A stretch of DNA of 43,886 nt from positions 35,013 through 78,898 of the forward strand of contig PHCH01000048.1 of NCBI GenBank assembly GCA_002840785.1, given 5' to 3'. This DNA comes from Betaproteobacteria bacterium HGW-Betaproteobacteria-4. GTDB taxonomy: Bacteria; Pseudomonadota; Gammaproteobacteria; Burkholderiales; Rhodocyclaceae. A program made the translations under genes and the position numbers. Positions 27,272 to 43,694 of this stretch are shown here, one piece after another. How positions within the stretch are numbered: position 1 is the stretch's first letter; each line of letters begins with the position of its first letter. The notes under the pieces are model-generated. The model saw only the letters and a program-made list of their open reading frames with translations. It was not told where the DNA came from and searched no databases.

Positions 27272-27290
27272 AGGCGTTGGCGCTACGCCT
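27272..27290. other. weak hairpin between convergent operons
   Basis: AGGCGT (27272-27277) pairs with ACGCCT (27285-27290) around a 7-base loop, in the 32-base gap between the two convergent operons. There is no T-tract. It may act as a poor bidirectional terminator. Confidence 0.3.
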
Positions 27291-27997
27291 TACTCGCCGG
27301 TTTTTACCTCTTTGACCGGCGGGGCATCGACATTTAGAACTTCCTCTGCCTTGACCGGCTCGGTCCATTTTCCGGCTTTTTTCAGCTTATCGCGCAAGCC
27401 CGGCAACGGAAAACCTTTCGAGTAAGCCTGATGGGCATGGAAAAGAGACTTTTCATAGTCTTTCAAGTCAAAATAGACCAAGCCGATGTTGTAATTGAAA
27501 TTGGCGCCGTCCTCGCCCATCGTGCGCGCATCTTCGAGATGAGCCAGCGCCTCCTTGCCCCGTCCGTGCTTGGCCAGATAGGCAGCGTAAATCATTCTCA
27601 CCATCGGGTCGTCCTCACGGAAACGCCAGGCACGGTGCAGATAGCACTCGACCGGGTAGCGAGCCCCCTTCGGTCGATCCGAACGGGTCTTTTCGCCATA
27701 GCGGATCATCGCCATCAAGGCGGCCGGATGATTGGGAAAAGCGCGTAGCGTGTAATCCAGGTCCCCTCCCGGATACACACCGGTTTGCCCGGAAACCAGA
27801 TTCAGGACCGGGGCCGTCAGATGGTGGAACTCGACCACCGGTAATTCCTTCTTGTCGGAACGATAGTCGTAAGGCCCGTAGCCATTCGCCAGCGGTCCAC
27901 AAGCAACATCGCTGACCGCCGCACTTGCCTGGGTAACAGAGCCGATCACCAAGCCAAACGCAACAGCCCAACCGAGCAAGCTGATCCTTCTTTTCAT
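27290..27997 (-). CDS. secreted TPR-repeat protein
   Basis: The 235-residue protein starts at ATG 27997, overlapping the flippase stop as ATGA; an upstream extension to 28234 would precede the signal peptide. Residues 1-27 are a signal peptide (MKRRISLLGWAV, cleaved after Ala-Ser-Ala). The rest holds two or three tetratricopeptide-like units with Ala/Gly/Tyr at TPR positions (for example NYNIGLVYFDLKDYEKSLFHA near 175-195). It is a periplasmic scaffold, the last gene of the minus-strand operon, and perhaps an assembly factor like those of alginate or cellulose systems. No closer identity is recognised. Confidence 0.75.
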   Translation of the reverse strand: MKRRISLLGWAVAFGLVIGSVTQASAAVSDVACGPLANGYGPYDYRSDKKELPVVEFHHLTAPVLNLVSGQTGVYPGGDLDYTLRAFPNHPAALMAMIRYGEKTRSDRPKGARYPVECYLHRAWRFREDDPMVRMIYAAYLAKHGRGKEALAHLEDARTMGEDGANFNYNIGLVYFDLKDYEKSLFHAHQAYSKGFPLPGLRDKLKKAGKWTEPVKAEEVLNVDAPPVKEVKTGE

Positions 27998-29493
27998 TGA
28001 GAAACCCTCATCCACCTTAACAATCGGTCCTTGAGACCGGTCTGTTCCAACAAGTAAGCCTCGGCACCTTCGGCACACCCAACGGCGCGCCAGAGTGCGA
28101 GGATCGTCAGGCCGTACAGCCCGGCGCCGCAAATCACCAGCTGGGCCAGTTGCACAATCTGGGGCAGCCCCTCCGGCCTCGGCAAGATGCTCAATCCGAG
28201 TGCCATTATGCCGGTCGCCAATAGCGGGCGCCACGTATGACGGAGAAAATCGGAAAGGCGAATCGCCTCAACGTAACGAAGCACCAGGCCAACGATGATC
28301 AGCAAGCCCGAAGCGGAAGTCAGCAGCCGGGCATAAGCGATACCCAGGGCATCCGATTGGGGGAACAAGACCAGCACGAGCAAGGCCAGCAGTGCCAGTT
28401 GCATCCAGGCCAGCCAGGCTTGCAAGCGAACCTTGCCGAGCGAGAGCAGGAGGTAGGCGCTACTGTGGCTGAGTGCCCCGAAGATGCTCATCAGCGCCAG
28501 GACCTGGAGAAACGGAACGGCAATCAGCCATTTGTCGCCGAGCAGGACGAGCACCGCATCGCGGGCGACCAGGGCCAGGCCGACCCCGGCCGGCAGGGCG
28601 AGCAGGCTCTGTACGCCAATCGCCTTGCAAAATACGGCGCGCAATTTCTCGGCGTCATCGGCGGCCTTGACGAACACCGGGAACAGGACGCGACCGAGCG
28701 GTGCCAGCAATTCGGTTGTCGGCATCGCTGCCACCTCATCGGCCAGCGTATAGGCACCCATGGTCGTGGCATCGGTGCGCCGGCCGACCAGAAACTTGTC
28801 GAGCTGGTTCTGCCCATAGACGCCGAGGTTGCGGATCAGCACCCATTGCGAGAAGGACCACAGCTTCCTGAAACGCGAGAAGGAAAGCCGCGGCCGGAAA
28901 TCGTGCATCCAGAAACTCAGGCCGACGCCGGCCGAACGACCGGCCAGCGCGCCGATCACCATTGCCCAGTAGGAATGCAGCCAGAAAGCCAGGGAAATCG
29001 TGACGATGAACCCGGCCAGCCGGCGAAAGAAGAAGAAACGGAAATCGCTGCCGAACTCCATGTTTTTCTGGAAGGCCACGATGCCGATATTCTCGAAGCC
29101 GCCGATCAGCATGGCCAGCGCCATGACGCGAATGACATCGACCACCCGCGGATCGCGGAAATACTCGGCGGCCAAGGGTGCCGCAAACCACAGGATGAGC
29201 GCCGCGCCGAGCGCCTGGATGACGCGCATGGTCCACGCCGTATCGAAATCCTCGCGGCCGGCATCGCGGTTCTGGATCAATGCCGAACCGACGCCGAGAT
29301 CGAGCAAGGTATCGATCAGCCCGACCACCACCGAAGCCATGGCGACGATGCCGAAATCTTCCGGCACCAGCAGGCGGGCCAGGATCAAGGTGCTGACCAG
29401 GCCGATCAGGCGATCGATCCAGCGCATGCCGACGACCAGCACCGCGCCGCGGGCGGCGGAAACAGACTTGCTGGGTCGCTTCGAGAGGCTCAT
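27994..29493 (-). CDS. Wzx/RfbX-type polysaccharide flippase
   Basis: The 499-residue protein has about 12-14 hydrophobic helices, starting with ILARLLVPEDFGIVAMASVVVGLIDTLLDLG (residues 38-68), a hallmark of the WzxC-like polysaccharide biosynthesis protein family. It should flip lipid-linked repeat units to the periplasm, where the ligase/polymerase of the other strand acts. ATG 29493 starts 11 bases downstream of the acyltransferase stop. It is the only flippase candidate in the window. Confidence 0.9.
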   Translation of the reverse strand: MSLSKRPSKSVSAARGAVLVVGMRWIDRLIGLVSTLILARLLVPEDFGIVAMASVVVGLIDTLLDLGVGSALIQNRDAGREDFDTAWTMRVIQALGAALILWFAAPLAAEYFRDPRVVDVIRVMALAMLIGGFENIGIVAFQKNMEFGSDFRFFFFRRLAGFIVTISLAFWLHSYWAMVIGALAGRSAGVGLSFWMHDFRPRLSFSRFRKLWSFSQWVLIRNLGVYGQNQLDKFLVGRRTDATTMGAYTLADEVAAMPTTELLAPLGRVLFPVFVKAADDAEKLRAVFCKAIGVQSLLALPAGVGLALVARDAVLVLLGDKWLIAVPFLQVLALMSIFGALSHSSAYLLLSLGKVRLQAWLAWMQLALLALLVLVLFPQSDALGIAYARLLTSASGLLIIVGLVLRYVEAIRLSDFLRHTWRPLLATGIMALGLSILPRPEGLPQIVQLAQLVICGAGLYGLTILALWRAVGCAEGAEAYLLEQTGLKDRLLRWMRVSQ

Positions 29494-29503
29494 CCGGGCA
29501 ATC

Positions 29504-30604
29504 CTACGGTCGACCGGAAAAAACAGGCAATTTCCGCAAGCCGCTGACGAAGAAAGCGCGCCACGCGCCGAGCTGGCGCTCGGTGCCGTAGCTGATCAGC
29601 AGGCAAGCGAGCAGGATCGCCGACATCCAGGCCAACGAATGGGCAATCGACAGTTCGCTATTCGGGAAGGCGTAGCCGGCCAGTTGGGTCATCGGCCGGT
29701 GGAAGAGATAGAGCGTGAAGGAAAACCCGGCCAGATACTTGGCGAGCGGCGCAAGCTGCCCGAAAAACCGCCGGAAACCCGGGTTCAGGCCGGAGAACGA
29801 CAGGATGTGGAGGACCACGGCGAGGCCGATCAGATAATCAGTCACCAGGCGTTGCGAGGCGCCGAGCCGCCAGAAACCGGGAATGTGGTCGTGCAGGTAG
29901 ATCCGGATCGCATGGTCGAGGCCGGAGACATTGACCCCGACGATCAGGGCCAGACTGCCAAGATAGGCCAGCCAGGCCCAGACCGGCTGCAGGCGGCCCT
30001 CGCCGTCGGCATGGGCGGCGAGCAGCGCGCCGAGCACCCAGACCGGGAACAGCGCCAGCACCGCCGGCCCGGCGACGATGACGCCGAGAACGAGGCACAA
30101 CCCGCGCCGCCAGCCGCGCAGGAAAAGGAACAGGCCGAACAGAACGTAGTACCAGACCTCGTAGCAGAGCGACCAATAGGGATCATTCAGCACAACCTCT
30201 GCCTTATTCCCATCTACCTCGTTGAGGAACAACAGGCTGCTGGCCACATCCCACGCCGAGAAATCCCGGTAGTTGCTCAGGCGCTGCGTATCGAACTCGC
30301 CGCCCAGGCCGACCAGAAGGCCCAACCCGACACTGAACGCCACCGCCGGCAAGGCCACCGAATAGACCCGCGACAGCCGTGCCGCGGCATAGTCGGCCCA
30401 GGTCCGCGCACTCCTCACCGTGCTCGAATAGATGATGAAGCCGGACATCACGAAAAAGATCATCACCGCCTCGTGGCTGAACCACGACAGCGGTAACCAG
30501 CGCATGTACAGCCCGTCCTGCTCCATGTGGCCGAGCAGGACCGCCGAGGCGGCGGTGAAGCGCAGCAGGTCGAGATAGGCGGACAGCGACTGGTCGAGCT
30601 TCAT
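29504..30604 (-). CDS. acyltransferase-3 (OafA-like) membrane protein
   Basis: This 366-residue membrane protein has about ten helices. The N-terminus YLDLLRFTAASAVLLGHMEQDG contains the conserved Arg and catalytic-site His26 of the Acyltransferase_3 family. FVMSGFII (near 50) and YWSLCYEVWYYVLFGL (near 143-158) are further family motifs. It transfers acetyl or a longer acyl group across the inner membrane onto a glycan. It is a second O-acylation route beside the MBOAT/SGNH pair of the same operon. Confidence 0.88.
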   Translation of the reverse strand: MKLDQSLSAYLDLLRFTAASAVLLGHMEQDGLYMRWLPLSWFSHEAVMIFFVMSGFIIYSSTVRSARTWADYAAARLSRVYSVALPAVAFSVGLGLLVGLGGEFDTQRLSNYRDFSAWDVASSLLFLNEVDGNKAEVVLNDPYWSLCYEVWYYVLFGLFLFLRGWRRGLCLVLGVIVAGPAVLALFPVWVLGALLAAHADGEGRLQPVWAWLAYLGSLALIVGVNVSGLDHAIRIYLHDHIPGFWRLGASQRLVTDYLIGLAVVLHILSFSGLNPGFRRFFGQLAPLAKYLAGFSFTLYLFHRPMTQLAGYAFPNSELSIAHSLAWMSAILLACLLISYGTERQLGAWRAFFVSGLRKLPVFSGRP

Positions 30605-30641
30605 CGCAGGCTGGCTTCCCGGGTGCGCGCCCGCGTCGCCA

Positions 30642-31895
30642 TCACGCGACGATGCCGTTCAGAACCGCCGCCAGTTCGCCGGTCCGCGAACGGCGCGAAT
30701 GCTGGCTGGCGATGGCGTAATCGACGCCACTCGCCTGCCCGGCCTTGAGCTTGTCGACGAAGGCGCGCAGCGCCCGGGCAATGTCCGAGGCGTCGGCGAT
30801 GTTGGCCTGATCGGTGGCGCCGACGTCACGGAGCATTCTGGCCGAAATGCCCGGGGCGTCGACCAGCGCGAAGATGGGGCGACCGGAGCGATAGTATTCG
30901 TAGATCTTGGCCGGAATCTGGTGGTTGCAGACGCTGCCCTGAAAGATCAGCAGGCCATCGGCGCGCAGCATTTCGCGCAGCGCATCGCGATAGGCGACGA
31001 CCGGTTCGAGGCGGACGATGTCCTCGATGCCGTGGCTGGCCAGTTGCGGCCGGTAAAGATCGTCGCTGCCGGTTGCGCGCAGGACGATCTGCAGCGTATC
31101 GGCGCTGATCGCGCCCTCTTTCTTGAGGCCGGCAATGGCGGCAAAGAAGGGACGCGGATCGCGTTCCTTGGGATACAGGATGCCGCTGTGCACCAGCGTG
31201 ATCTGGTTCGGCTTGCCGAGCGGCGCTTCTTCCAGGCCGCGCAGCGCATCGCGGAAATTGTCTTCGTCGTAGCCGTTCTCGATGACGCCCCATTTCGCTT
31301 CGGGAATCTGCGGGTAGCGCTCGGCGTACATTTGGCGCGTCAATTGCGTGGTGAATAGCGCCCGCGTGCATTGTTCGACCGAGGCCGCTTCAAGCCGGCG
31401 CTGGACGCGCCAGGTCAGCGGATCGCGCGGGTAACCTTCCTCGGTCATCGCATCGCGGAAATCGGCCACCCAGGGCAGGCCGGAGCGTTTGCTCAGGCCA
31501 AGGCCGATCATGTGGGCGGTGGCAATCGGGAAGGTGGAGAACAGTACGTCCGGGCGGTGCTTGCGGATCATCTGCATGCCGGTCCACATGCCGCCCAGCC
31601 ACCAGCTCGCCCAGCGATCAGGTTGCGCCATCCAGCGCAGGTATTTGCCACGGAAGGAGAGCTGCGTCGCCGTGTCCAGACCCCAGGCCCGTTCGACGAT
31701 CACGTCGTCGGGGATTTCCTTCAACTGGTCCGGATTGATGACGTCGTAGGCCCTGGGCGAGACAGACAGGACCATCGGGTCCCAGCCGTATTCGCGAAGA
31801 TAAGTACAGAATTTCAGCGTCCGCTGAATGCCGCTGCTCATTTTGAAGGGTGGGAAGTGAAACGCCACCATCAGTATTTTTTTGTTTTTCTGCAT
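30642..31895 (-). CDS. glycosyltransferase, GT4-like
   Basis: The 417-residue protein has the N-terminal motif KILMVAFHFPPFKMSSGIQR, with a Gly-x-x-Arg typical of GT-B acceptor domains. It continues with LPWVADFRDAMTEEGYPRDP near 145 and a C-terminal donor domain with KIYEYYRSGRPIFALVD near 339. This resembles the family of glycosyltransferases beginning VxYYFPP found in EPS loci. It is the only glycosyltransferase on the minus strand, between the SGNH and acyltransferase genes. Confidence 0.85.
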   Translation of the reverse strand: MQKNKKILMVAFHFPPFKMSSGIQRTLKFCTYLREYGWDPMVLSVSPRAYDVINPDQLKEIPDDVIVERAWGLDTATQLSFRGKYLRWMAQPDRWASWWLGGMWTGMQMIRKHRPDVLFSTFPIATAHMIGLGLSKRSGLPWVADFRDAMTEEGYPRDPLTWRVQRRLEAASVEQCTRALFTTQLTRQMYAERYPQIPEAKWGVIENGYDEDNFRDALRGLEEAPLGKPNQITLVHSGILYPKERDPRPFFAAIAGLKKEGAISADTLQIVLRATGSDDLYRPQLASHGIEDIVRLEPVVAYRDALREMLRADGLLIFQGSVCNHQIPAKIYEYYRSGRPIFALVDAPGISARMLRDVGATDQANIADASDIARALRAFVDKLKAGQASGVDYAIASQHSRRSRTGELAAVLNGIVA

Positions 31896-31939
31896 CCCGA
31901 AATATCCCGTCGTCTTTCCAATATCCGTTCAAGATAGTA

Positions 31940-31964
31940 CCTGCCCGCTCGCCGAAGCGGCAGG
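31940..31964 (-). other. hairpin just after the SGNH gene
   Basis: On the minus strand CCTGCCGCT pairs with AGC-G-GGCAGG, a 9-bp stem with one bulged base, starting two bases after the SGNH stop codon. It has no T-tract. It lies in the only sizeable gap (70 bases) of the minus-strand operon and could attenuate transcription or protect the 3' end of the mRNA. Confidence 0.45.
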
Positions 31965-31965
31965 A

Positions 31966-32988
31966 CTATTTGTGTTCCGGCGCAATCAGCGCATTGCCGG
32001 CCAGTTCAGCCACGATGCCGATGGCTTCGGCGTTCCAGTGCCGGTCGTAGGGACCGACATCGAGCAAACGGCCGGTGCGGACAAGGTGCTCCTTGAAGGC
32101 GCTGCCGGGATCGATCACCGTTACCTGCCCAGCGCCAGCTTGCTGAATCCGCTCCGCCACTTCGTTGCGCTCCCCTGCCCCGGCTTCCAGTAGATGTCCG
32201 CGGTCCGGGTCCACGACGAACACAAGGCGGCTGTTCTGAATTTTTGAAATTTGGCTAAAAAACGCGTTGACCGTAGCATTCTGCAGCTCATCCGAAACTC
32301 CGGCCTGCAGCGACGACTTGGTGACCGCAGGAGCGCTCCAGGCTGACGGCTTGAGTTTCGACAAATCGAATTTCAGTTGTGAAACCAGATACTGGGCCAG
32401 CGCCGAGTGGCGCAGGATACGTTTCAGCGCCCCCGGCTGGGCCTGTGTCTCGGTACGAATCCGGCCGGTCACCGTATCGACACAGACACCGTGTATATGG
32501 CCGGACCCGCATTGCGCCTGCTTGATGTCGCCACGTTCAAGAATAAAGACGAAGGTCCGGATGCCAAATTTTTCGGCGGCGAATTTCGCCCGTTCGGCGT
32601 AGTCGAGCAGATTCGACCCCGGGCCGCCAAAGGCGTAGACGGGACGGCCGGCCAGCTTGTTTTCGAGCATGGCGCCAAGGCGCTGACCTACGGGCAGCAT
32701 GCTGGCTTCGACGTAGCTGTCGCCGATCAGGCCGATTGCGTTCCGGTCCGGCAGAAAATCCCGGCCGGCCAGGAAGCCGATGTTGTTGGCGCAGTTGCGC
32801 TGGGCGTTCTTCAGATCCCAGCCGGTCGACGAAATGAAGCAGTGCCCCGCCGGATAGGAAAGAATCAAGGGGTGCTGGTAATAGCCGCTCCGCGTCGCCG
32901 TCGCGACGGGCAGTATCTGGAACGCGATTTCCAGCATGAGGAGGACAGCGAAGACACCGGCGAGGAAGGAAAGTAGCCGCGTTTTCAT
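31966..32988 (-). CDS. SGNH-fold hydrolase/acyltransferase partner of MBOAT
   Basis: The 340-residue protein starts at ATG 32988, sharing one base with the MBOAT stop (TGATG); the longer open frame upstream overlaps MBOAT and is rejected. One N-terminal signal-anchor helix (residues 5-26) is followed by a periplasmic SGNH domain. Block I is GLIGDSYVEAS with Ser91, and the last block is a DxxH-like DVGPYDRHWN near 315-324. Such proteins (AlgX/AlgJ type) accept acetyl groups from an MBOAT protein and place them on the polysaccharide. The immediate pairing supports that role. Confidence 0.85.
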   Translation of the reverse strand: MKTRLLSFLAGVFAVLLMLEIAFQILPVATATRSGYYQHPLILSYPAGHCFISSTGWDLKNAQRNCANNIGFLAGRDFLPDRNAIGLIGDSYVEASMLPVGQRLGAMLENKLAGRPVYAFGGPGSNLLDYAERAKFAAEKFGIRTFVFILERGDIKQAQCGSGHIHGVCVDTVTGRIRTETQAQPGALKRILRHSALAQYLVSQLKFDLSKLKPSAWSAPAVTKSSLQAGVSDELQNATVNAFFSQISKIQNSRLVFVVDPDRGHLLEAGAGERNEVAERIQQAGAGQVTVIDPGSAFKEHLVRTGRLLDVGPYDRHWNAEAIGIVAELAGNALIAPEHK

Positions 32989-34475
32989 CAGAAGTTGAAG
33001 TAGATGAAGGCGCTGACGCTGTCGCGCGTCGCGTTGATGGCCACGAGAAAGGCACAAAGGCCTAGCGCCCCGCCCAGCAGGGCAAACGGCCAACTGACAT
33101 GGCGACGAACCAGGATGGCGGTGCGTTCGCCGATGGCATTGCTGTTGGGCATGGCGATGGAGACTGCCAGCAACGCCACAATGAACCAGACGCCGCGATC
33201 GACATCGAGCCCCTGGTTCCAGAGCGCGGTCTGGGCGCCTGCCGGGGTGCCAAGCATTGCGGCAACGATGCTCAGTGCTGAAGCGAAGTCGTTGGCGCGG
33301 AAGAATACCCAGGCGAATACCGTGGCCAGGAAGGTCAGGCCCCAGGCAAAAATCTTGAAGACGGCGCTGCCGCGCAAGGCGCTGAAATGCTGTCCGCACA
33401 GAGCCTGAAAGCCATGATTGACGACCAGATAGAGACCATGCAGGGCGCCCCAAAAAACGAATGTCCAGTTGGCGCCGTGCCACAGGCCGCCGAGCACCAT
33501 GGTCAGCAGCAGGTTGATGTAACGCTGCAATGCTCCGTTCCTGTTGCCACCGAGAGGAATGTAGAGATAGTCGCGCAGGAAGGCGGACAGCGTCATGTGC
33601 CAGCGTCGCCAGAATTCGGTGATGTTCAGGGCCTTGTAGGGCGAATTGAAGTTGTAGGGCAGGCGGACGTTGAACATCCATGACAGCCCGACGGCCATGT
33701 CGGAATAGCCGGAGAAATCGAAATACAGCTGGAAGGTGTAGGCCAGCGCCCCGATCCAGGCTTCGAGGAGATCAGGCTGGTAGCCGGTGTGGGCGGCGTT
33801 GAACACGGCATCGGCGTAGGGACTGATGCCATCGGCCAAGACGATTTTCTTGAACAGGCCGATGGCGAAAATACAGAAGCCGGTGGCCAGGTTGTCGAAG
33901 TTCAGGTGGTAGGTGTTGGCCTCCCTGAACTGCGGCATCATCTGCGCGTGATGGAGGACCGGGCCGGCGATCAGGTGGGGAAAATAGGTGACGAACAGGC
34001 CGTAATGGACGAAGCGATACTCTTTCGTGCCCTTCTGGTAAGCGTCGGCGAGAAAGGCGATTTGCGTGAAGGTGAAGAAGGAAATGCCGATGGGCAGGAC
34101 GATTTCACCAAGGCTCCAGGTGGTTCCGAGCGCCACGTTGAGATTGGCGACGAAGAAGCCGGCGTACTTGAAATAGGCCAGCAGCAGCAGGTCGACCGTG
34201 ACACCGGCAATCAGCCAGGTCTTGGCCGCGCTCCGCCGTGCGGGGTCGCCTCCGGTTGGGTCATGCGAGGAGATTTTCAGGCCGACCCAATAGTTCCAGA
34301 GGATGGATGCGAGCAGGAGTACCGTGAATTCCGGCATCCAGTAGCCATAGAAGGCCAGGGAGGCGAGGAACAGCCAGCCCGCTCCCCAGAGAGGCGAATG
34401 CCGGGCGGCCAGGTAGTAGCCAAGCAGGACGACCGGCAGGTAAACCAGGAAAAACGCAGTGCTGGTAAAAAGCAT
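32988..34475 (-). CDS. MBOAT family O-acyltransferase (AlgI-like)
   Basis: This 495-residue membrane protein has about ten helices. The family signatures are ALAYTFQLYFDFSGYSDMAVG (243-263), FWRRWHMTLSAFLRDYLYIPLGG with His293, and MVLGGLWHGANWTF with the catalytic His333. It is the AlgI/PatA type that moves acetyl groups from the cytoplasm to a periplasmic SGNH partner, which is encoded next. It implies that the polysaccharide is O-acetylated, or acylated with another group made by this operon. Confidence 0.95.
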   Translation of the reverse strand: MLFTSTAFFLVYLPVVLLGYYLAARHSPLWGAGWLFLASLAFYGYWMPEFTVLLLASILWNYWVGLKISSHDPTGGDPARRSAAKTWLIAGVTVDLLLLAYFKYAGFFVANLNVALGTTWSLGEIVLPIGISFFTFTQIAFLADAYQKGTKEYRFVHYGLFVTYFPHLIAGPVLHHAQMMPQFREANTYHLNFDNLATGFCIFAIGLFKKIVLADGISPYADAVFNAAHTGYQPDLLEAWIGALAYTFQLYFDFSGYSDMAVGLSWMFNVRLPYNFNSPYKALNITEFWRRWHMTLSAFLRDYLYIPLGGNRNGALQRYINLLLTMVLGGLWHGANWTFVFWGALHGLYLVVNHGFQALCGQHFSALRGSAVFKIFAWGLTFLATVFAWVFFRANDFASALSIVAAMLGTPAGAQTALWNQGLDVDRGVWFIVALLAVSIAMPNSNAIGERTAILVRRHVSWPFALLGGALGLCAFLVAINATRDSVSAFIYFNF

Positions 34476-34494
34476 GAAGCGCCGAAGGGTCGGG

Positions 34495-34569
34495 TCAGCC
34501 CGCGCTCAGGCGCATGTCGGGCGCATGCCCTTGCAACCACTGCTCCAGCATCATGGAGATCCAGATCAT
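34495..34569 (-). pseudogene. out-of-frame C-terminal remnant of the asparagine-synthase-like gene
   Basis: Read in a second frame from 34569, this stretch encodes an MIWISMMLEQWLQ segment and stops at TGA (34497-34495). That is exactly the usual C-terminal end of asparagine synthase-like proteins (Trp-Ile-x-Met-Met-Leu-Glu-x-Trp-Leu). It directly follows the premature stop of the preceding gene, so it is the lost tail of that gene, split off by a short frameshifting deletion near 34570. Confidence 0.75.
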
Positions 34570-36059: not shown

Positions 36060-36114
36060 GGTGTTTTCCAAAATCTGGTTGTTGTTCACGCGGCAGTTAG
36101 CGCGGCAAGGAAGC

Positions 36115-37383
36115 TCAAGGTTTCGGCGAAGTTTGGAAAGCCCCGGGGCTAAGCGGGACGCTGCCTGTACTGCGAGTCGATCGGGGATGCAGGTATTCCT
36201 TGGCCGGGCGCAGATTGACGCCGGGCACTACCGGTGGCTCGACCCCCTTGTTCCGGAGACTGGCATTTTCCTGCAGACGATAGTCTTCGCGCACCGCCTG
36301 AACAAATTGATCCCAGTCGACGTTGTAATTGTTGCGGTAATCCCCGGGACCGGCACTCTCAAGCTTTCCCTTGCCGACCAGAAGATTGTTGACCGCGACA
36401 ACTGTCTGCTGTCCTGACTTCATGCGAAGAAATATCCCGCCCTGCGGACGGTTGTCTACCAAGGTGTTGTTGATCAGGTAGAGCGCGTTGTTCGGCCAGC
36501 GATAACCCTCTGCACCATAGGAAATCAGATGGGGGTTCTCCGTCGTCGAGCTCTGCTGTATCAGGTTGCCGACGATGTAGCCGATCCCGCCGCTTGGCAA
36601 TTCGAGTTCGTAACTGGCACCACCACCGACTTCGTCGGTCAGACGATTATAGAAAATGTGGTTCTCGGCTGCCCTGCTCTTCAGCAGGTGCCCCACCCTG
36701 GCATGATGAAAATAGCTGCCAATGACCGTCAGGCGGGCGATCGTGCCGACATAGAGGTTGTGACTCTGGCCATCGCCATGGCCGTTGTTGCCGAATTCAC
36801 TGTTGATTATTTCAAGTGTGCTGTCCGGATTTCCCCCGGTCAGGATACCGTTCTCGTTGTCGAGAAAACGGCAGTCGCGAACGAACAGGTTGCCTTTTTC
36901 CAGACGAATGCCCGCACCGTTCCGGTCATTGACCTTGGCGCCGATGAAATCGAAACCCTCGACGCTGATGGCACCGCCTCGAAGAACCCAGATTGCTTTG
37001 CCTTCCGCCGACACACCGTCGGCAATCAGACGAACCCTGCCGCCAACTGCCCTGATTTTCAGCTTGGCCTGCATCCAGACAGTGACATCATGCAGGTAAT
37101 CACCGGCATCGACCTCCACGCTATCTCCAGCTTGGGCAACTCGCGATGCTTCACGCAAGGTCTTTATCTCGCGCTGGGGGCCGACCTTGACGACGCGCTG
37201 GATTTCTTTGGGTTCGGTTTCCCTGGCCTGTGCAGGGGCTCCCCCCAGCAGGCCGATAACGGCGATCAGCAACAGGACAAGGATAAAGCTGTTGCCAGCC
37301 GAGACAGACCTTGCCGCATTGCTACCGTACCAGTCTATGTTTGGTCCGTGCACGCCACCAAGAGAATCGGCACCGGTCTTCAT
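36115..37383 (-). CDS. secreted right-handed parallel beta-helix protein
   Basis: The product is about 422 residues from ATG 37383, 4 bases after the ACP stop; an upstream start at 37422 overlaps the ACP gene. A signal peptide or anchor lies near residues 30-52 (FILVLLLIAVIGLLGG, followed by Ala-Pro-Ala-Gln-Ala). The body repeats short Val/Ile/Asn/Gly units such as GAGIRLEKGNLFVRDCRFLDN and NGILTGGN, the pattern of NosD/pectate-lyase-like beta-helices. Similar proteins in EPS loci are polysaccharide lyases, epimerases or matrix-binding proteins. No catalytic set was identified. The C-terminal 80 residues are Pro-rich and unlike the helix. Confidence 0.8.
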   Translation of the reverse strand: MKTGADSLGGVHGPNIDWYGSNAARSVSAGNSFILVLLLIAVIGLLGGAPAQARETEPKEIQRVVKVGPQREIKTLREASRVAQAGDSVEVDAGDYLHDVTVWMQAKLKIRAVGGRVRLIADGVSAEGKAIWVLRGGAISVEGFDFIGAKVNDRNGAGIRLEKGNLFVRDCRFLDNENGILTGGNPDSTLEIINSEFGNNGHGDGQSHNLYVGTIARLTVIGSYFHHARVGHLLKSRAAENHIFYNRLTDEVGGGASYELELPSGGIGYIVGNLIQQSSTTENPHLISYGAEGYRWPNNALYLINNTLVDNRPQGGIFLRMKSGQQTVVAVNNLLVGKGKLESAGPGDYRNNYNVDWDQFVQAVREDYRLQENASLRNKGVEPPVVPGVNLRPAKEYLHPRSTRSTGSVPLSPGAFQTSPKP

Positions 37384-37387
37384 GACG

Positions 37388-37648
37388 CTATGCGTTGTCT
37401 GCAGCCAGCAGGCGTTGAACACAATCGGTCAGCGTGCCGGCGGTTTCAAAGATGGCACCGTCCAGCTGGTCTTCGGGAAATTCGAAGCCGAGTTCTTCCT
37501 CCAGCGCCGCCACCAGCGAAACGATGGCCATGGAGTCAAGCTGGGGCAAGGCTCCGCGCAACTTGGTATCGGCGGTGAATTCGAGCGCACGGCCTTTCAG
37601 GTTGAGTTCCCGGTCGAGAATTTTCAGGATGGTCTGCAGTGTATTCAT
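37388..37648 (-). CDS. acyl carrier protein 2
   Basis: This is an 86-residue acidic helical protein, started at ATG 37648 because AGGA lies 9 bases upstream; a start at 37657 overlaps that site. The phosphopantetheine site is Leu-Pro-Gln-Leu-Asp-Ser39-Met, which fits the Asp-Ser-Leu/Met pattern of carrier proteins. It sits between the GNAT-like and beta-helix genes. It is not the housekeeping AcpP, which has a more acidic sequence and lies beside fab genes. It probably carries an acyl or aminoacyl unit for the polysaccharide. Confidence 0.88.
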   Translation of the reverse strand: MNTLQTILKILDRELNLKGRALEFTADTKLRGALPQLDSMAIVSLVAALEEELGFEFPEDQLDGAIFETAGTLTDCVQRLLAADNA

Positions 37649-37666
37649 CGATGGCATTCCTATAAT

Positions 37667-38515
37667 TTACAGGTCGAGGGCGACCGACTCGGAGTAGAGG
37701 TAGTCGATATCATCGCTAGTCAGCGTGTCTGATTTGAATTGTTTGGTATTGAACCCGGTACGAATTTTGGCAATTCGTGGAACGGCCGGCAGCATGCGGC
37801 GCTCGACATGCGTAGACACCATGCCACGGAGCAGGAAATGCGACTGCAGCGCTGCCAATCCCTGCAGAAAGAGACCGCCGTCGCTGACGTGAAGAATCGA
37901 GGCACATGGCAGTCCCTTGAAGCTACGGCGCTTATAGATGAGGTGACACCAGTGCCCTGGCCGGCCGAGCAGAATCTGGTTCAGCCAGGGAAAGCCAGCA
38001 TGATCGAGCCATTTTTTGGCCAGATCCCCGGAGAAATCCTGGCCGATACGCCCGGGGTCTGTCTCGACCCGCCAACCGAAGCCGGGAATCGGTAGATTCG
38101 GAAGGACGATCACGGCCTCGTCGAGCGGCTGGAATTTGAGGAACTGAAGAGCTCCCGCCACTACCTTGGTTGGAGAAAAATCGGTCAGGTGTATACCTTC
38201 CTGAGCCACCAGGCGCATGGCCAGTTGCATGCTGAATTTGCGGTAGTCGTCGAGCACACACCAACTGGTGATATTGCAAAACCGCTCTGTCCGGCCGCGA
38301 ATCAGGCGATCCGCATAGATTGCGCCGATCCCCCCGACGACGCGCCCTTCATCACGCAACATATAGCCAAAATTGGGCCGCTCGGCGGCCCAATTGGCGG
38401 AAAGGCCTTCAATCCAAGCCTCACTGCTACGCTGATAGCTCATGTGCTGGACGAGGAAATCGGCAAATTCCTGCAGATTTTCTTTGGAAATAGCCTCTAT
38501 GGTCGGTTTTGCCAT
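37667..38515 (-). CDS. GNAT-fold acyltransferase-like protein
   Basis: The product is about 282 residues; ATG 38515 (MAKPTIEAISKENL) is chosen because the longer frame runs into the next gene upstream. It looks like a GNAT domain: EAISKENLQEFADFLVQHMS at the start and GYMLRDEGRVVGGIGAIYAD near 55-72, the strand-turn-strand that precedes acyl-CoA binding in the N-acetyltransferase fold. A long C-terminal region with several conserved-looking Trp and Arg residues is not assigned. It probably uses acyl-ACP or acyl-CoA to acylate an amino sugar. I do not recognise a closer family. Confidence 0.6.
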   Translation of the reverse strand: MAKPTIEAISKENLQEFADFLVQHMSYQRSSEAWIEGLSANWAAERPNFGYMLRDEGRVVGGIGAIYADRLIRGRTERFCNITSWCVLDDYRKFSMQLAMRLVAQEGIHLTDFSPTKVVAGALQFLKFQPLDEAVIVLPNLPIPGFGWRVETDPGRIGQDFSGDLAKKWLDHAGFPWLNQILLGRPGHWCHLIYKRRSFKGLPCASILHVSDGGLFLQGLAALQSHFLLRGMVSTHVERRMLPAVPRIAKIRTGFNTKQFKSDTLTSDDIDYLYSESVALDL

Positions 38516-38522
38516 TGCCAAT

Positions 38523-39410
38523 TCACATTCGCTGAAGGGGAGCCTGTCCATGCTCCGCATGGAGGCCTTGTAGCCAATCGATTCCCCAAACCGCCACCTG
38601 CTCTCGCCACTCTCCGGACGAGAAGGTATGGTCGGCATAGGGCAATTCATGTCGTTCGGTCTGGCGTGCGGCAAGCTGCTCTTTCCAGACGGGCACCCTT
38701 GCGACCAAGTCATCGAACTCCTTGGGCACCAGATCCCGGCCACTCATGACCATCATGATTCTGCCGCGAAAATGTGTCAGGCCTTCCAGCATTCGCTCTG
38801 GTAGCGGCCGCCGATCCATGACAGGTAGCGATGATCCCTTCCCCGAGTTTCCACGCGCCTTGGCGATCATTTTTACGGCAGAACGCATTGAACCGAGGAT
38901 ATCGAACTTCAGGGTGAATACCTTGTTCCAGAACGACCGTTCGGTCAGCCGGTTAAGGTAGTAATGCTTGACGACCGCTCTAGCCTGGCCTTCCTCGGTG
39001 CGCACCCAGGGATTGAGCATCACGATCCCCAGCACTCGCTGATCCTTGTGGGCATAAAACAGCGACGCGGAACAGGCGTTGCATTCCCCCCACAGAACCA
39101 CCCCTTTCAAAGACGGGCATTCCTCATAGAGCCTGTCAATCGCCGCCCGGATATCGTCCTCGGCATTTTCATAGCCAACGTACTCACCGTAACTGTCGCC
39201 CATCCCGCGAAAATCGAATCTGAATACCGGAAATCCCTGCGCCGCAAACTTTCGCGCCCAGAGTAATAGCTGCCGATGGCCGCCGATGCGATATTGAGGT
39301 CCGCCGGCAACCATGACGAGCACCCCCAGTTCGGGATTGCCCTGTGCCTGATGCAGCATGCCAACCAATGGGATGGCGTTACTTTCGAAAACGATCGGTA
39401 TCTCGTTCAT
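38523..39410 (-). CDS. exosortase A system-associated hydrolase 1 (TIGR03100-like)
   Basis: This 295-residue alpha/beta hydrolase starts at ATG 39410, overlapping the stop of hydrolase 2 (ATGA). The fold markers are VMVAGGPQYRIGGHRQ near 33-48, FRFDFRGMGDSYGE near 63-76 and the nucleophile elbow LWGECNACSAS near 106-116, with Cys in place of the usual Ser. A late Asp and His (SGRDLVPKEFDDL and HTFSSGEW) complete the triad. The pair of hydrolases is known from exosortase A loci in many bacteria, where its substrate is unknown. Here it sits between two acyl carrier protein genes, suggesting action on a thioester or ester. Confidence 0.85.
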   Translation of the reverse strand: MNEIPIVFESNAIPLVGMLHQAQGNPELGVLVMVAGGPQYRIGGHRQLLLWARKFAAQGFPVFRFDFRGMGDSYGEYVGYENAEDDIRAAIDRLYEECPSLKGVVLWGECNACSASLFYAHKDQRVLGIVMLNPWVRTEEGQARAVVKHYYLNRLTERSFWNKVFTLKFDILGSMRSAVKMIAKARGNSGKGSSLPVMDRRPLPERMLEGLTHFRGRIMMVMSGRDLVPKEFDDLVARVPVWKEQLAARQTERHELPYADHTFSSGEWREQVAVWGIDWLQGLHAEHGQAPLQRM

Positions 39411-40279
39411 GCTTGCCGCCGCAACGATTGGACCCATTCTGTCGTTTTCTCAACGAGCTCTGGCGAAATATAGCGGTCATAAAGCGCCCAGAACGCTGGT
39501 GCATCATAAGCCGCTGCGTCGACATGCCTGCCAGCCTGTCGCCACCCTTCGACAAGATTTTGGCTGACCGGCGAAATGACTGGTTCTTCGCCGGTCCCTT
39601 TTTCAAACCAGGCCATCGATACCGATTCAGGAGGCATCAAATCGATCAACCTAAGGCCATCGATGCTGTGTGCCAATTCGGGAGCAATTTCATAGCCTGC
39701 CACTTCTATACTCTGACCAGCAGCCAACTGTCCCCGCATTCCCCCGGTCGTTTCCTTCGGGATGTCGGTTCTGTCCATATTGGCAGCTATGCGCATGCGC
39801 ATGAACTGGGTGAGATAGTGCTTCCCGTCAGTAACGGCCTGCCAGGCGACCACAGCCTTCACGTGCGGAAGATTCCGAATGGCTTCAAGCGCCAGAGGAA
39901 CCCCCAGCCGAATGCCAAGAAGCGCCGAGCAACCACCGGCCTGGGTTGCCTCAAGCCATTCGACACATTGTCGAATGTTGTCAATCCAGATGTCCCAGCG
40001 CGCCTCGCCATACTCACCGTCGCTCTCGCCAGTACCGAACAAGTCGACGACCAGTGTTCCAACCCCTGCTTTTGCGAGTGCCTGGGCCTGAATGGTCACC
40101 ATGCTGCGGCAACGATTCATCTCTTCATTGAAGGCTGGAACAACGAGGACATTGCCCCAGCACTCTGCCGCACCCATCGGCTCATGGTAAACACAAAACA
40201 GGCGCCCTTTGCCACAAGGGAGAAAGAACGGCCTCGGTATCGAAGAAACGCTTCCCGACAAAATCACACTCCCCAGCAC
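39407..40279 (-). CDS. exosortase A system-associated hydrolase 2 (TIGR03101-like)
   Basis: This alpha/beta hydrolase-fold protein has 290 residues from GTG 40279; a TTG at 40261 has a better placed GGGGAG and may be the true start. The motifs are VVPAFNEEMNRCRSMV near 46-61, the Asp-Leu-Phe-Gly-Thr-Gly-Glu-Ser-Asp loop and an elbow ALLGIRLGVPLAL with Arg where the catalytic Ser would be. It may therefore be a non-hydrolytic partner or use another residue. It is followed, with a four-base overlap, by hydrolase 1, as in other exosortase A loci. The function is unproven. Confidence 0.82.
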   Translation of the reverse strand: MLGSVILSGSVSSIPRPFFLPCGKGRLFCVYHEPMGAAECWGNVLVVPAFNEEMNRCRSMVTIQAQALAKAGVGTLVVDLFGTGESDGEYGEARWDIWIDNIRQCVEWLEATQAGGCSALLGIRLGVPLALEAIRNLPHVKAVVAWQAVTDGKHYLTQFMRMRIAANMDRTDIPKETTGGMRGQLAAGQSIEVAGYEIAPELAHSIDGLRLIDLMPPESVSMAWFEKGTGEEPVISPVSQNLVEGWRQAGRHVDAAAYDAPAFWALYDRYISPELVEKTTEWVQSLRRQA

Positions 40280-40286
40280 TGGCCAA

Positions 40287-40556
40287 TCAAAGCAAGCCCT
40301 TCTTGCGAAGTACGAACTCTGCCATCCGAGTCAGCGACCCCAGGTTGTCGACATTGATTTCCTCCTGGGCGAGAGGAATCTGGTAAGTCTTTTCATACCA
40401 TGCGATCAGTTCCAGCAAGCCTGTGGAGTCGATAAGGCCGGTCGCAGGAATAATGTCGTCCACCGCCAGTTCCGAAGCATCATCCCCTGTCTGCGCAGCA
40501 ATCTCGACGATCTTTGCCTTGATTTCAGTCTCTATGTTTTCTTTGTTCAATGACAT
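40287..40556 (-). CDS. acyl carrier protein 1
   Basis: This 89-residue acidic protein has the phosphopantetheine site Gly-Leu-Ile-Asp-Ser44-Thr-Gly and a helix-rich layout. It lies 19 bases downstream of the E2 gene and 7 bases before hydrolase 2. The sequence differs clearly from ACP 2 of the same operon, so the two are not a recent duplication. The position after E1 and E2 genes suggests that it accepts the acyl group made by them. Confidence 0.9.
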   Translation of the reverse strand: MSLNKENIETEIKAKIVEIAAQTGDDASELAVDDIIPATGLIDSTGLLELIAWYEKTYQIPLAQEEINVDNLGSLTRMAEFVLRKKGLL

Positions 40557-40575
40557 TTTGTCCGTTTTCCGTACG

Positions 40576-41691
40576 TTAATCTTTCTTTGGCTGTGCCAGC
40601 TTTTTTAGCGCAGCGACGACTTGCCCACCATTCAGCACGCGGTGGTCGTAGCTGGCACCAAGCACCCCTCGCCCACCCTGTCCTGCCGCATGGGCTACCA
40701 TCAGCGCGGTATGTGGCGGAAGTATCGGAATGTGTCGCGTGACCTTCCAGCGTTCCATGCTCGAAAATCCGATGGTGGCACCGGAGGCTTCCGACTCGCG
40801 CAGATTGTGCCCGGCAGCCCGACGCAATACGTCACCCAGCGAATTTACGAAACCCAACTGATCCAGTTCTTGTGCGTTACGTACCACGGCAAGATACAGG
40901 GACTCTCCAGCTTGGATTGTGAACCCGAGATTGACAGAATCGTATTCATAGCGCTTGTTGCCAACGAAGGTGGCGTTCAGTCGCGGGACTTCCCTGGCAA
41001 TTTCGACCAGCCGCGATGCCATCAGGGGCAACAAGGGCGGCATAAGCAAGCCCTTGTCTTCCTGAAAGCGTTTGGCATAGTCCGCCCAATGCGCGAGGTC
41101 ATACTCGATCTCGATATAACCGGGCACAGCAAAATCGCGGTGCCAGGCCACCGTTGCCGCCATGCCCTTCTCTTCCCGGGTAAGATCGACTTGCGATCCG
41201 GAAACTTCCGGCAGGGTTTCGGTGGGGATGCTCGCAGCAGCGACATTGGCACCTTTCTTCGTGCCGACCAATCCATGCTGTGATAGATATCGCTCCACCA
41301 CTTCCACGGTGATCCGGCCATCGACTGCTGGAATCTGCTCCACCTGCAACCCATGCTGAGCCAGCATTATTTTTGCCTTGGCCGTAATTTGCGAAGCGTG
41401 CGATCCGGTTTTTCCGACAGCGTCGGAGGTGATTTCCGGAATAGCTTCTTCCGCGGTTTCACCCAGCCAAAGCATGACACTGCCGACCTTGACGACCTCC
41501 TCGGGTTGGCCAACGAAACCAAGTACATAACCGGCTACAGGCGCCGTAACGTCTAGTACGGCTTTGTCAGTTTCTACCTGGCCGACAATCTGTTCTGCCA
41601 TAACCTTGGCGCCAACGGCCACATCGAAGGCAAGAATCTTTACTTCGTCGTCGTTGTTATTGATGCGTGGTACGTGTATTGGGGTCGCCAT
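40576..41691 (-). CDS. 2-oxo acid dehydrogenase E2 (dihydrolipoyl acyltransferase)
   Basis: The 371-residue protein contains a lipoyl domain at residues 1-80 with Lys43 in VETDKAVLDV, a peripheral-subunit-binding-like segment near 100-135 (ITAKAKIMLAQHGLQVEQI), and a catalytic domain from about 175. The family His is in Asp-His-Arg-Val-Leu-Asn-Gly-Gly near the end; the usual Asp of DHRVxDG is Asn here. It moves an acyl group from its lipoyl arm to CoA or, given the context, possibly to an acyl carrier protein. The start is 18 bases from the E1 stop. No E3 gene is nearby. Confidence 0.92.
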   Translation of the reverse strand: MATPIHVPRINNNDDEVKILAFDVAVGAKVMAEQIVGQVETDKAVLDVTAPVAGYVLGFVGQPEEVVKVGSVMLWLGETAEEAIPEITSDAVGKTGSHASQITAKAKIMLAQHGLQVEQIPAVDGRITVEVVERYLSQHGLVGTKKGANVAAASIPTETLPEVSGSQVDLTREEKGMAATVAWHRDFAVPGYIEIEYDLAHWADYAKRFQEDKGLLMPPLLPLMASRLVEIAREVPRLNATFVGNKRYEYDSVNLGFTIQAGESLYLAVVRNAQELDQLGFVNSLGDVLRRAAGHNLRESEASGATIGFSSMERWKVTRHIPILPPHTALMVAHAAGQGGRGVLGASYDHRVLNGGQVVAALKKLAQPKKD

Positions 41692-41708
41692 CTATCGATT
41701 TCCGATCA

Positions 41709-43694
41709 CTACAGAATGTCCATTACGGCCGCAACGATTGCGTCCTCGTCTGGCAGTTGCATACTTTCCATGCTGCGCGCCGAGGCGATTGGTACCTGCG
41801 CCGTACCGAGCCGCGCAACCTTTCCCTGATACCCGTTTTCAGCAAGCATGGCGAGCACTTCAGCACTAAAACCAAAGTGGTGATGTGCCTCTTCAACCAC
41901 CAGAATGCGCGGCCGATGCAGCAAAGCATTCATCAACGAGAAGCGCGGCAGGGGAGCAAGCAGCGCTGGTGCCACAATTTCCACAGAAAGCTCCTCGCTT
42001 TGCTCTAGGATGCGCGCAGCCTTTTCGGCGATCGGTAGCATACCGCCATACGACAATAGGGTGATGTCGGGATCGTCGCTGCCACTTCTTAGCGTTGGGA
42101 ACTGATCGGCCCCGACGTCGTCCGGTTCGGCAAAAATCGCCTGATAGCCAGCAGGCTCGGGCTTCTCACCGTATAGCAACTTGTGCTCGAGAAACAGGGT
42201 CGGATTCGGCCAGCGGATCGTTGCATTGATGAGCAGTTGGCCAAGATTGTGCCGATGACTGCCGAATACTACGGTCAACCCCGGAACTGACACAAAAATG
42301 TTCTCCAGGCTCTGACTATGCGTCGGGCCATACCCGCGCCGGCCGCCACAGGGCGCTCGAATGACGATAGGGACAGATGACTCGGCAAACATGCCAGGAA
42401 ATTTGACCGCATGGTTATAAATCTGATCCATGCACAGTGTCAGGAAATCGGCAAACATGATCTCGACAATCGGCTTTTTCCCGGCCATGGCTAGGCCAAT
42501 CCCGGCGCCGGTAATGCCTGCTTCGCTGATCGGCGTCGAAATCACCCTGCCCTTGAATTTCTCTGACAAGCCGGCGGTCACCTTGAATGCACCACCATAT
42601 GGGTCGTGCAAATCCTCACCGAGAAGCATCACATCGGGATCGTGTTCAAGAAGCTTGTGCAGGGCATCGTTCAGGGCCGCTCTGATGTTCGGCACCGCAG
42701 ACTCTGCCACGGGGAACTCGATCTCCAGAGCGGGCTTAAATACATGCTCGGGCACCGGATCAAAACCAGCCGGTGCTGATTGCATGGCAACACGCTCGAC
42801 TTCCCCGAGGAAAGCCTTGCAAGCGGCCTTGATTGCCTCGACCTGAGCTGCTGGGAGGTTTGTTTCCAAGGCCAAGAGCGGATCCTTGGCCGTAAGATTT
42901 TCGAGCTCAGCCGGGTCTCGTAAATCATCTCCCTTGCTGTGCGGCCCGAGACGGCCGGTGTCGATGACCAACATGCCGGGACGCCGTGCTTGCCGCAATT
43001 CCGAAACCACGTTTTCAACCTGGATTGAAAAATCGTCGTCCCTATCACTCAGTCGCCATGTCGAAAGACCGAATGCTTTCCCTCGCAACTCGATGTCACC
43101 ACCTATCGTGTCTCGCGTGTAGGTGGTTTGAGCGATGCCGTTGTGCTCGACAACAAACAGCACCGGGGCATTCCAAATCGAGGCTAGGTTCATGCTCTCG
43201 TAGAGCAACCCTTCACCAAGCGTTCCGTCACCGACAATGACGGCAACAATCCCTTGGCTTCCTTTTACCTTCAAGGCAGAGGCCAAACCTACGCCTATCC
43301 CGGTCATGCCCGCCTGCACACCATTGCTGTGGAAGTGGCGAAAGGCAAGGTGCTGACTACCTCCATACCCGCCACAAACCCCATCTTCGCGCCCCATGAT
43401 TTCGGCAACCAAGCCAACGAAATTACCGGAGTAGGTCAGAAAATGTCCGTGGTTTCTGTGATTTGACAGCACATAGTCATCGGGATGACCGAGCGCTCGC
43501 ACAACAGACATCTGGCAGAGCTCCTGGCCCAAGCAGGTATGGGTAGTACCCGACACCAACCCCCGCCCGAACAGATCGAGTATCAGTTTTTCGGTTTGAC
43601 GGACCAAATGACCATAGGCAAACAACTCACTGGGTGTTGTTCCGATGCTTGGCTTACCAAATGCATCGACAGCAAAAATCGGGGATATCTCCAT
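41709..43694 (-). CDS. fused E1 alpha/beta 2-oxo acid dehydrogenase (thiamine diphosphate)
   Basis: The protein is 661 residues long. Residues 25-300 are the E1 alpha domain with the thiamine-diphosphate motif VGDGTLGEG (155-163) closed by Asn185. Residues 335-661 are the E1 beta domain, including LLGEDLHDPYGGAFKVT and GAGIGLAMAGKKPIVEIMFADF. The two are normally separate subunits, and a fused form occurs in some branched-chain or acetoin-type enzymes. It decarboxylates a 2-oxo acid and passes the acyl group to E2. It is the first gene of the minus-strand operon. The substrate cannot be read from sequence: a branched-chain 2-oxo acid, pyruvate or acetoin are all possible. Confidence 0.92.
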   Translation of the reverse strand: MEISPIFAVDAFGKPSIGTTPSELFAYGHLVRQTEKLILDLFGRGLVSGTTHTCLGQELCQMSVVRALGHPDDYVLSNHRNHGHFLTYSGNFVGLVAEIMGREDGVCGGYGGSQHLAFRHFHSNGVQAGMTGIGVGLASALKVKGSQGIVAVIVGDGTLGEGLLYESMNLASIWNAPVLFVVEHNGIAQTTYTRDTIGGDIELRGKAFGLSTWRLSDRDDDFSIQVENVVSELRQARRPGMLVIDTGRLGPHSKGDDLRDPAELENLTAKDPLLALETNLPAAQVEAIKAACKAFLGEVERVAMQSAPAGFDPVPEHVFKPALEIEFPVAESAVPNIRAALNDALHKLLEHDPDVMLLGEDLHDPYGGAFKVTAGLSEKFKGRVISTPISEAGITGAGIGLAMAGKKPIVEIMFADFLTLCMDQIYNHAVKFPGMFAESSVPIVIRAPCGGRRGYGPTHSQSLENIFVSVPGLTVVFGSHRHNLGQLLINATIRWPNPTLFLEHKLLYGEKPEPAGYQAIFAEPDDVGADQFPTLRSGSDDPDITLLSYGGMLPIAEKAARILEQSEELSVEIVAPALLAPLPRFSLMNALLHRPRILVVEEAHHHFGFSAEVLAMLAENGYQGKVARLGTAQVPIASARSMESMQLPDEDAIVAAVMDIL

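Follow-up and report, generated by a model that had tools for sequence, protein, structure and literature searches.

What is an E1 subunit of the 2-oxo acid dehydrogenase type doing at the edge of an exopolysaccharide (EPS) locus? The question is raised by the terminal 43,886 bases (the window) of contig C70, 78,898 bases long, from the draft genome of Betaproteobacteria bacterium HGW-Betaproteobacteria-4. The plus strand of the window is a standard exosortase A (XrtA) EPS locus, with export, chain-length, tyrosine kinase and ATPase genes, XrtA, glycosyltransferases, an O-glycosylation ligase and the deacetylase TIGR03006. The minus strand encodes, in this order, a thiamine diphosphate (ThDP)-dependent E1, an E2, an acyl carrier protein (ACP1), hydrolases 2 and 1, a GNAT-like protein, ACP2, a beta-helix protein, an asparagine-synthase-domain (AsnB-like) protein, an MBOAT, a GDS-motif protein, a glycosyltransferase, an acyltransferase-3, a Wzx flippase and a TPR-like protein (Table 1). 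Because the gaps from the E1 gene to the AsnB-like gene are only -35 to +25 nt, a single transcription unit over this part is plausible. These genes are two systems side by side: the usual XrtA set and a separate E1-E2-ACP1 cassette. The latter is a real, conserved module that has joined the XrtA set without replacing any of its genes. By analogy it appears to work like the acyl-ACP loaders of the quinocarcin (Qnc), naphthyridinomycin (Nap) and scleric acid (Scl) clusters, from which carrier-loading cassettes of this kind are known. The chances seem about evenly balanced that E1, E2 and ACP1 make a two-carbon (glycolyl-type) acyl-ACP and that the GNAT protein transfers this acyl group to an amino sugar that a deacetylase has exposed.

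A preliminary description of the locus held that E1 and E2 replace the acyl-CoA ligase and the pyridoxal phosphate (PLP) decarboxylase of the XrtA system. This is ruled out, as both genes (TIGR03098, 793 bits; TIGR03099, 619 bits) are present on contig C56 of the same genome. E1 is the final gene of C70, and the window closes at the contig end. C56 opens with a truncated minus-strand ACP gene, followed by the ligase, the decarboxylase, a sugar transferase and genes that we take to be PrsK, PrsR and PrsT. Directly upstream of E1 in L061, the nearest relative, lies a short piece identical at the protein level to part of the C56 ACP. Four near relatives with longer contigs (L062-L065) have the decarboxylase and ligase running leftward, divergent from ACP3, E1, E2, ACP1, hydrolase 2, hydrolase 1, GNAT and ACP2 running rightward. 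The ligase lies within the examined stretch in 7 of 10 XrtA-type loci, and scores above cut-off in each of the four genomes of the host-family sample that have both E1 and hydrolase 1, as well as in Paucibacter. Since ligase and decarboxylase occur on C56 and adjoin ACP3-E1 in the relatives, and the ligase recurs in XrtA loci, the apparent replacement is a contig break: the usual set has been enlarged and nothing replaced. As in the canonical set (TIGR03098, TIGR03099, TIGR03100, TIGR03101 and an ACP), hydrolases 1 and 2 score above their cut-offs and ligase and decarboxylase are in the genome; unlike in that set, E1-E2-ACP1 sit between ACP3 and hydrolase 2 in L062-L065.

Judged from its sequence, E1 is not a central-metabolism E1. 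It shares its domain make-up, as does E2, with the pyruvate (PDH) and branched-chain 2-oxo acid (BCKDH) dehydrogenase complexes, but it is far below the curated cut-off of every NCBIfam model that it matches (at best 188 bits against 321). In a tree of 70 E1s, which took in 25 of 67 ordinary E1s and in which L034 was labelled as family, the cassette family and five natural-product E1s split from the ordinary E1s with an SH-aLRT support of 100. The five natural-product E1s lie on one side of this tree (support 82), and the eleven XrtA-linked E1s, including that of the window, form one clade (support 99). Gln127, Lys254, Tyr455 and Thr458 occur together in every family E1 (38 of 38) and every natural-product E1 (5 of 5), and in none of the 67 ordinary ones. 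Further E1-like matches, including an E1-like gene pair, are found elsewhere in the same genome, and in 3 of 4 E1-bearing genomes searched at 1e-30. With E1 outside the ordinary group, bearing a signature absent from ordinary E1s and additional to the other E1-like pair, a stray central-metabolism enzyme is ruled out; clustering with such enzymes was the outcome that the preliminary description had itself named as speaking against its reading.

The natural-product E1s come from five plasmid records among the best 10 of 715 records; four further records (H3-H5, H7) share organism names with two of them, and H8, from another Streptomyces, was left out. They include RenH of the renieramycin plasmid, adjoined by the E2-like RenI, and Streptomyces NBC_01136 (L180), where an ACP-E1alpha-E1beta-E2 operon lies beside a non-ribosomal peptide synthetase (NRPS) gene. 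These four SclQ-type genes stand side by side in the reverse of the order tabulated in PMC6335953. The S. cattleyicolor and Nonomuraea plasmid records have E1 and E2; L178 and L179 show E1 and E2 matches only, in an unannotated part of the records. On the Paenibacillus plasmid (L181, 4432-9858) ACP-E1alpha-E1beta has a separate E2 and a thioesterase nearby, in a cluster with a ketosynthase-like gene. An intermediate form was also noted in G346 (L059, 8495-11510), where split E1alpha and E1beta genes and a lipoyl-type third gene lie beside sugar-nucleotide-like genes; this E1 has Lys254, Tyr455 and Thr458, with Leu at 127.

Among the 28 family loci in which the catalytic motif of E2 could be located, 26 keep its His and have lost its Asp. 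Asn stands in place of the Asp in both natural-product E2s whose motif was recognised, and two ordinary E2s have Asp. ACP1 has no Pfam match at 1e-3, while its attachment serine (xDS) is kept in all 32 homologues collected. A hidden Markov model (HMM) of these weakly finds the XrtA-type ACPs.

The distribution of the cassette was read from a species-genome collection, among the matches listed for two E1 peptide patterns. Thirty-eight loci have at least 40% E1 identity, followed by a gap down to 35%; the count excludes L101 (a partial E1 match, 52%) and three further loci in genomes already represented. E2 is present in 37 of the 38, although a few of these matches are truncated or weak. ACP1 is present in 31 loci, adjacent in 29 of them and at a distance of about 7 kb in L069 and L093. 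The seven loci without ACP1 comprise four on contigs ending there and three outliers at 40-44% identity. Thus E1, E2 and a carrier occur together in 31 loci, and the earlier suggestion that they form one acyl-loading unit holds. Inclusion of the AsnB-like, MBOAT, SGNH and acyltransferase-3 proteins in that unit does not, nor does that of the glycosyltransferase and Wzx: these vary between loci and are ruled out as members, the constant part beyond near relatives being E1-E2-ACP1, mostly with GNAT. Ten loci are of the XrtA type, with hydrolase 1 and GNAT. The proposed co-occurrence with XrtA is optional: among 199 genomes of the host's family 68 have hydrolase 1, five have E1 and four have both. 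Outside XrtA loci, 15 of the 38 pair the cassette with GNAT and a polysaccharide deacetylase of CE4 fold, and four with another deacetylase-like protein.

Hosts among the matches listed include Rhodocyclus, Azonexus, Accumulibacter, Paucibacter, Methylomonas, Hydrogenophilales, Gallionellaceae, Hoeflea and Bryobacterales. The cassette is found in Pseudomonadota and Acidobacteriota, and Myxococcota account for two of the three outliers. Its distribution is patchy, and its presence optional: E1 (at least 60% identity) occurs in 4 of 399 genomes of the host's order, GNAT in six (the same four, G015 and G099), and within Methylomonas E1 occurs in 10 of 37 genomes. On the complete chromosome of Methylomonas sp. 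LW13 (L072) the cassette is small and self-contained, with GNAT and deacetylase only, between flanks that look like housekeeping genes.

By sequence the GNAT assignment is weak: with E allowed up to 1, 18 of 25 family members match PF00583, the best of them at 5e-4, and the window protein matches neither NCBIfam at 1e-3 nor, in a search by sequence, any solved structure. Its AlphaFold2 model (pLDDT 92) has a tandem-GNAT fold. In the GNAT tree, XrtA GNATs fall on one side, weakly (68/92). Two loci (L087, 8935-10899; L091, 13420-15279) encode the CE4-fold deacetylase and GNAT in one frame. The main deacetylase family was assigned by fold alone, with no Pfam, NCBIfam or solved-structure sequence match. 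The second family (L082, L083, L084, L088), also without a family or structure match, is putatively deacetylase-like by its motif.

In XrtA loci the cassette is accompanied by a change in the hydrolases. The hydrolase 1 tree held ten cassette loci, the window and 35 cassette-free loci, drawn from 62 other genomes of the order above cut-off and judged cassette-free by the best E1 E-value per genome. The 11 cassette rows form their own clade for hydrolase 1 (support 100/96) and, against 16 cassette-free rows, for hydrolase 2 (93/92), and the hydrolases of the E1-less congeners G218 and G336 fall among the cassette-free rows. By its residues hydrolase 1 resembles a Cys acyltransferase or thioesterase, since Cys119, Asp235 and His270 are kept in 45 of 45 loci. 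Immediately before the Cys, all 10 cassette loci have Glu and all 33 (of 35) cassette-free loci read have Leu, giving GEC for the GLC of the canonical set, a shift which suggests retuning to another acyl group. Hydrolase 2 has Arg at its nucleophile site in 10 of 10 cassette loci and in all 12 (of 16) others read, with one string shifted by a residue.

Cassettes of this kind are credited in print with making glycolic-acyl-S-ACP from a ketose phosphate. According to PMC6335953, QncN, QncL and QncM direct how a C2-glycolicacyl unit is made and attached, and the homologous SclQ1-4 (ACP, E1alpha, E1beta and E2) are proposed to turn a ketose phosphate into an activated glycolic unit. According to PMC7570522, DinS/DinU, homologues of NapD/NapB, provide a hydroxyethyl unit from pentulose phosphate, which is transferred to the ACP DinT. 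Like QncN/QncL/QncM, NapB/NapC/NapD and SclQ1-4, the window cassette combines ThDP E1 alpha and beta parts, a lipoyl-E2 and a dedicated ACP, and its E1 signature is also that of RenH and of the E1 of L180, an operon with the SclQ gene set. It differs in its alpha-beta fused E1, in having no NRPS, and in its partners, which are GNAT and deacetylase or the XrtA hydrolases.

By this analogy, E1 would either draw a C2 unit from a ketose phosphate or decarboxylate hydroxypyruvate; both are likelier donors than a plain 2-oxo acid. The lipoyl domain of E2 would carry the unit as a glycolyl-type acyl group and hand it to the phosphopantetheine of ACP1, not to CoA. Lipoamide dehydrogenase would be supplied from elsewhere in the genome, where two genes above cut-off are encoded. 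A CE4-type deacetylase would strip acetyl from an amino sugar and the tandem GNAT would shift the acyl group from ACP1 to the exposed amine, making an acyl swap; an amino-sugar nitrogen is a more likely acceptor than a PEP-CTERM anchor. In XrtA loci the deacetylase would be an EPS-locus enzyme, TIGR03006 being the proposed source of free amino groups in this genome, while Cys-type hydrolase 1 and hydrolase 2 would handle a further carrier-bound acyl step with ACP2/ACP3, the ligase and the PLP decarboxylase. FkbH-type loaders put glyceryl, another small hydroxyacyl unit, on an ACP; unlike the cassette, FkbH is a HAD-type enzyme with no ThDP or lipoyl group, and there is none in the window. One adjoins a homologue of the window GNAT in G015, a genome without an E1 of the cassette family, where an ACP, the FkbH protein, a protein with an SDR-like part and the GNAT homologue form one minus-strand run (L195, 8085-12603).

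The simplest alternative is that E1, E2 and ACP1 load the acyl group of an ordinary 2-oxo acid (pyruvate, 2-oxobutyrate or a branched-chain acid), which GNAT or the membrane acyltransferases attach to the polymer. The E1 does lie within the PDH/BCKDH superfamily, and the XrtA operon also carries an MBOAT and an acyltransferase-3. This is nevertheless unlikely: all 43 family and natural-product E1s have Gln at 127, a position which by hand alignment corresponds to the Val/Leu side-chain pocket residue of PDH and BCKDH; in the tree the family falls together with E1s from clusters of the type credited with glycolyl production; and for plain acetyl, acetyl-CoA would suffice. It is improbable that GNAT is instead an acyl-ACP-dependent N-acyl amino acid or lipid synthase, making a signal or lipid and not a polymer substituent. 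Synthases of the FeeM type are GNAT-type and carrier-dependent, an exosortase-gene neighbourhood is reported for PEP-CTERM-linked ones, and the best-scoring NCBIfam model on ACP1 is an ornithine-lipid ACP, far under cut-off. Against this stand the lack of an NCBIfam match for the window GNAT, the polysaccharide-deacetylase fold of its partner and the natural-product kin of E1, which point to a short-acyl loader. Very improbable, finally, is that the cassette and the XrtA ligase, ACP and decarboxylase make a small secreted natural product merely encoded beside EPS genes. The ligase, decarboxylase and three carriers do resemble a small assembly line, and the nearest relatives outside polysaccharide loci are in natural-product clusters, one beside NRPS genes. 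However, no NRPS condensation module was found among the scanned window proteins, the far side of E1 being the contig end; glycosyltransferases, a flippase and deacetylases surround the cassette; and in Methylomonas L072 only GNAT and deacetylase accompany it.

Several observations weigh against glycolyl loading followed by N-acylation of an amino sugar. The natural-product E1s were chosen for their likeness to the window E1, and kinship to QncN/QncL and NapB/NapD is drawn via RenH and the SclQ-like gene set. As L034, an intermediate E1, has Lys254, Tyr455 and Thr458 with Leu at 127, only part of the signature may matter. The Hoeflea and Rhizobium E2s retain the catalytic-motif Asp, and the ACP1 family is not detectably that of the Qnc/Nap/Scl carriers, the 32-sequence HMM giving no natural-product-locus carrier at E <1, though these are short proteins. 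Since Eis, N-myristoyl and aminoglycoside acyltransferases fit the GNAT model as well as glucosamine enzymes do, the fold does not name the acceptor. Neither deacetylase HMM matches a gene within the examined stretch of the ten XrtA loci, and 9 of the 38 listed loci have neither XrtA hydrolases nor either deacetylase type within that stretch. The cassette hydrolase loci are one clade, so that the Leu-to-Glu change is roughly one event and statistically weak.

More tentative, and somewhat doubtful, is the wider proposal of a pathway in Pseudomonadota and Acidobacteriota in which a C2 hydroxyacyl unit from sugar phosphate, on a dedicated carrier, is swapped for the N-acetyl of amino sugars in surface polysaccharides, with a single recruitment into XrtA loci and a retuned hydrolase 1. 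The loading chemistry is already published for antibiotic assembly lines; here its kin are in polysaccharide loci with a deacetylase and an N-acyltransferase. If the proposal is true, surface polysaccharides bear an acyl group made outside CoA metabolism, and there is a first chemical handle on XrtA ligase, decarboxylase and hydrolase function. The role of the XrtA hydrolases becomes testable through the E1-linked clade, in which the residue next to the catalytic Cys has changed. Among titles and the beginnings of abstracts, covering few subscription papers, we recognised no published account of the cassette in the context of polysaccharides; a paper on Dechloromonas aromatica (PMC2907700), in its available part, mentions an eps/exosortase cluster and not an E1-E2-ACP1 cassette.

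Table 1. Features of the window, in window coordinates
Feature	Position	Strand	Remarks
E1, alpha-beta fused ThDP enzyme, putative carrier-loading type, 661 aa	41709..43694	-	PF00676+PF02779+PF02780; groups with natural-product E1s; Q127, K254, Y455, T458
E2, lipoyl domain (ETDKA) and acyltransferase (catalytic) domain ending YDHRVLNG	40576..41691	-	HxxxDG without Asp
ACP1, dedicated acyl carrier protein	40287..40556	-	Weak NCBIfam ACP matches below cut-off; xDS attachment Ser
Hydrolase 2	39407..40279	-	TIGR03101, 247 bits, cut-off 203; Arg at alpha/beta-hydrolase nucleophile position
Hydrolase 1	38523..39437	-	TIGR03100, 289 bits, cut-off 168; Cys119-Asp235-His270; GEC box, not GLC
Tandem-GNAT acyltransferase, proposed N-acyltransferase using acyl-ACP1	37667..38515 (start approximate)	-	Mainly AlphaFold2 fold
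ACP2, XrtA-type acyl carrier protein	37388..37657	-	PF00550
Right-handed beta-helix protein	36115..37422	-	Recurs in some near relatives
Asparagine-synthase-domain protein	34566..36089	-	Pfam detects no glutaminase domain; relatives have homologues in their XrtA loci
MBOAT O-acyltransferase, accessory, outside conserved cassette	32988..34475	-	Pfam
GDS-motif (SGNH-like) protein, after MBOAT	31966..33000 (start approximate)	-	Motif only
GT4-type glycosyltransferase, weak match	30642..31895	-	
Acyltransferase-3 membrane protein, accessory	29504..30604	-	
Wzx-type flippase	27994..29493	-	
TPR-like protein, by-eye reading, recurrent in XrtA loci	27290..28000 (start approximate)	-	Family matches none
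XrtA-system polysaccharide deacetylase TIGR03006	14171..15043	+	452 bits, cut-off 276

Most operon parts named in the preliminary description are confirmed: E1, E2, two ACPs, hydrolases 1 and 2, and the asparagine-synthase, MBOAT and acyltransferase-3 proteins. GNAT stands by its fold, and the SGNH-like protein, with no match in a Pfam/NCBIfam scan at 1e-3, has the GDS motif as its sole sign. The beta-helix, weak GT4, Wzx and TPR-like genes had gone unremarked. Two irregularities were also seen on the plus strand. XrtA, with its EpsI-like C-terminal part, and the stp2 glycosyltransferase share one 880-codon frame (17216-19858), which is either a real fusion or a lost stop. The XrtA amidotransferase (19886-21641) is split over two frames, a 404-codon open reading frame followed by 21063-21641. 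Measured from the protein's own start, its profile match sets in some 29 positions too late, which would fit a loss of residues near the N-terminus, and the split is either an assembly error or decay.

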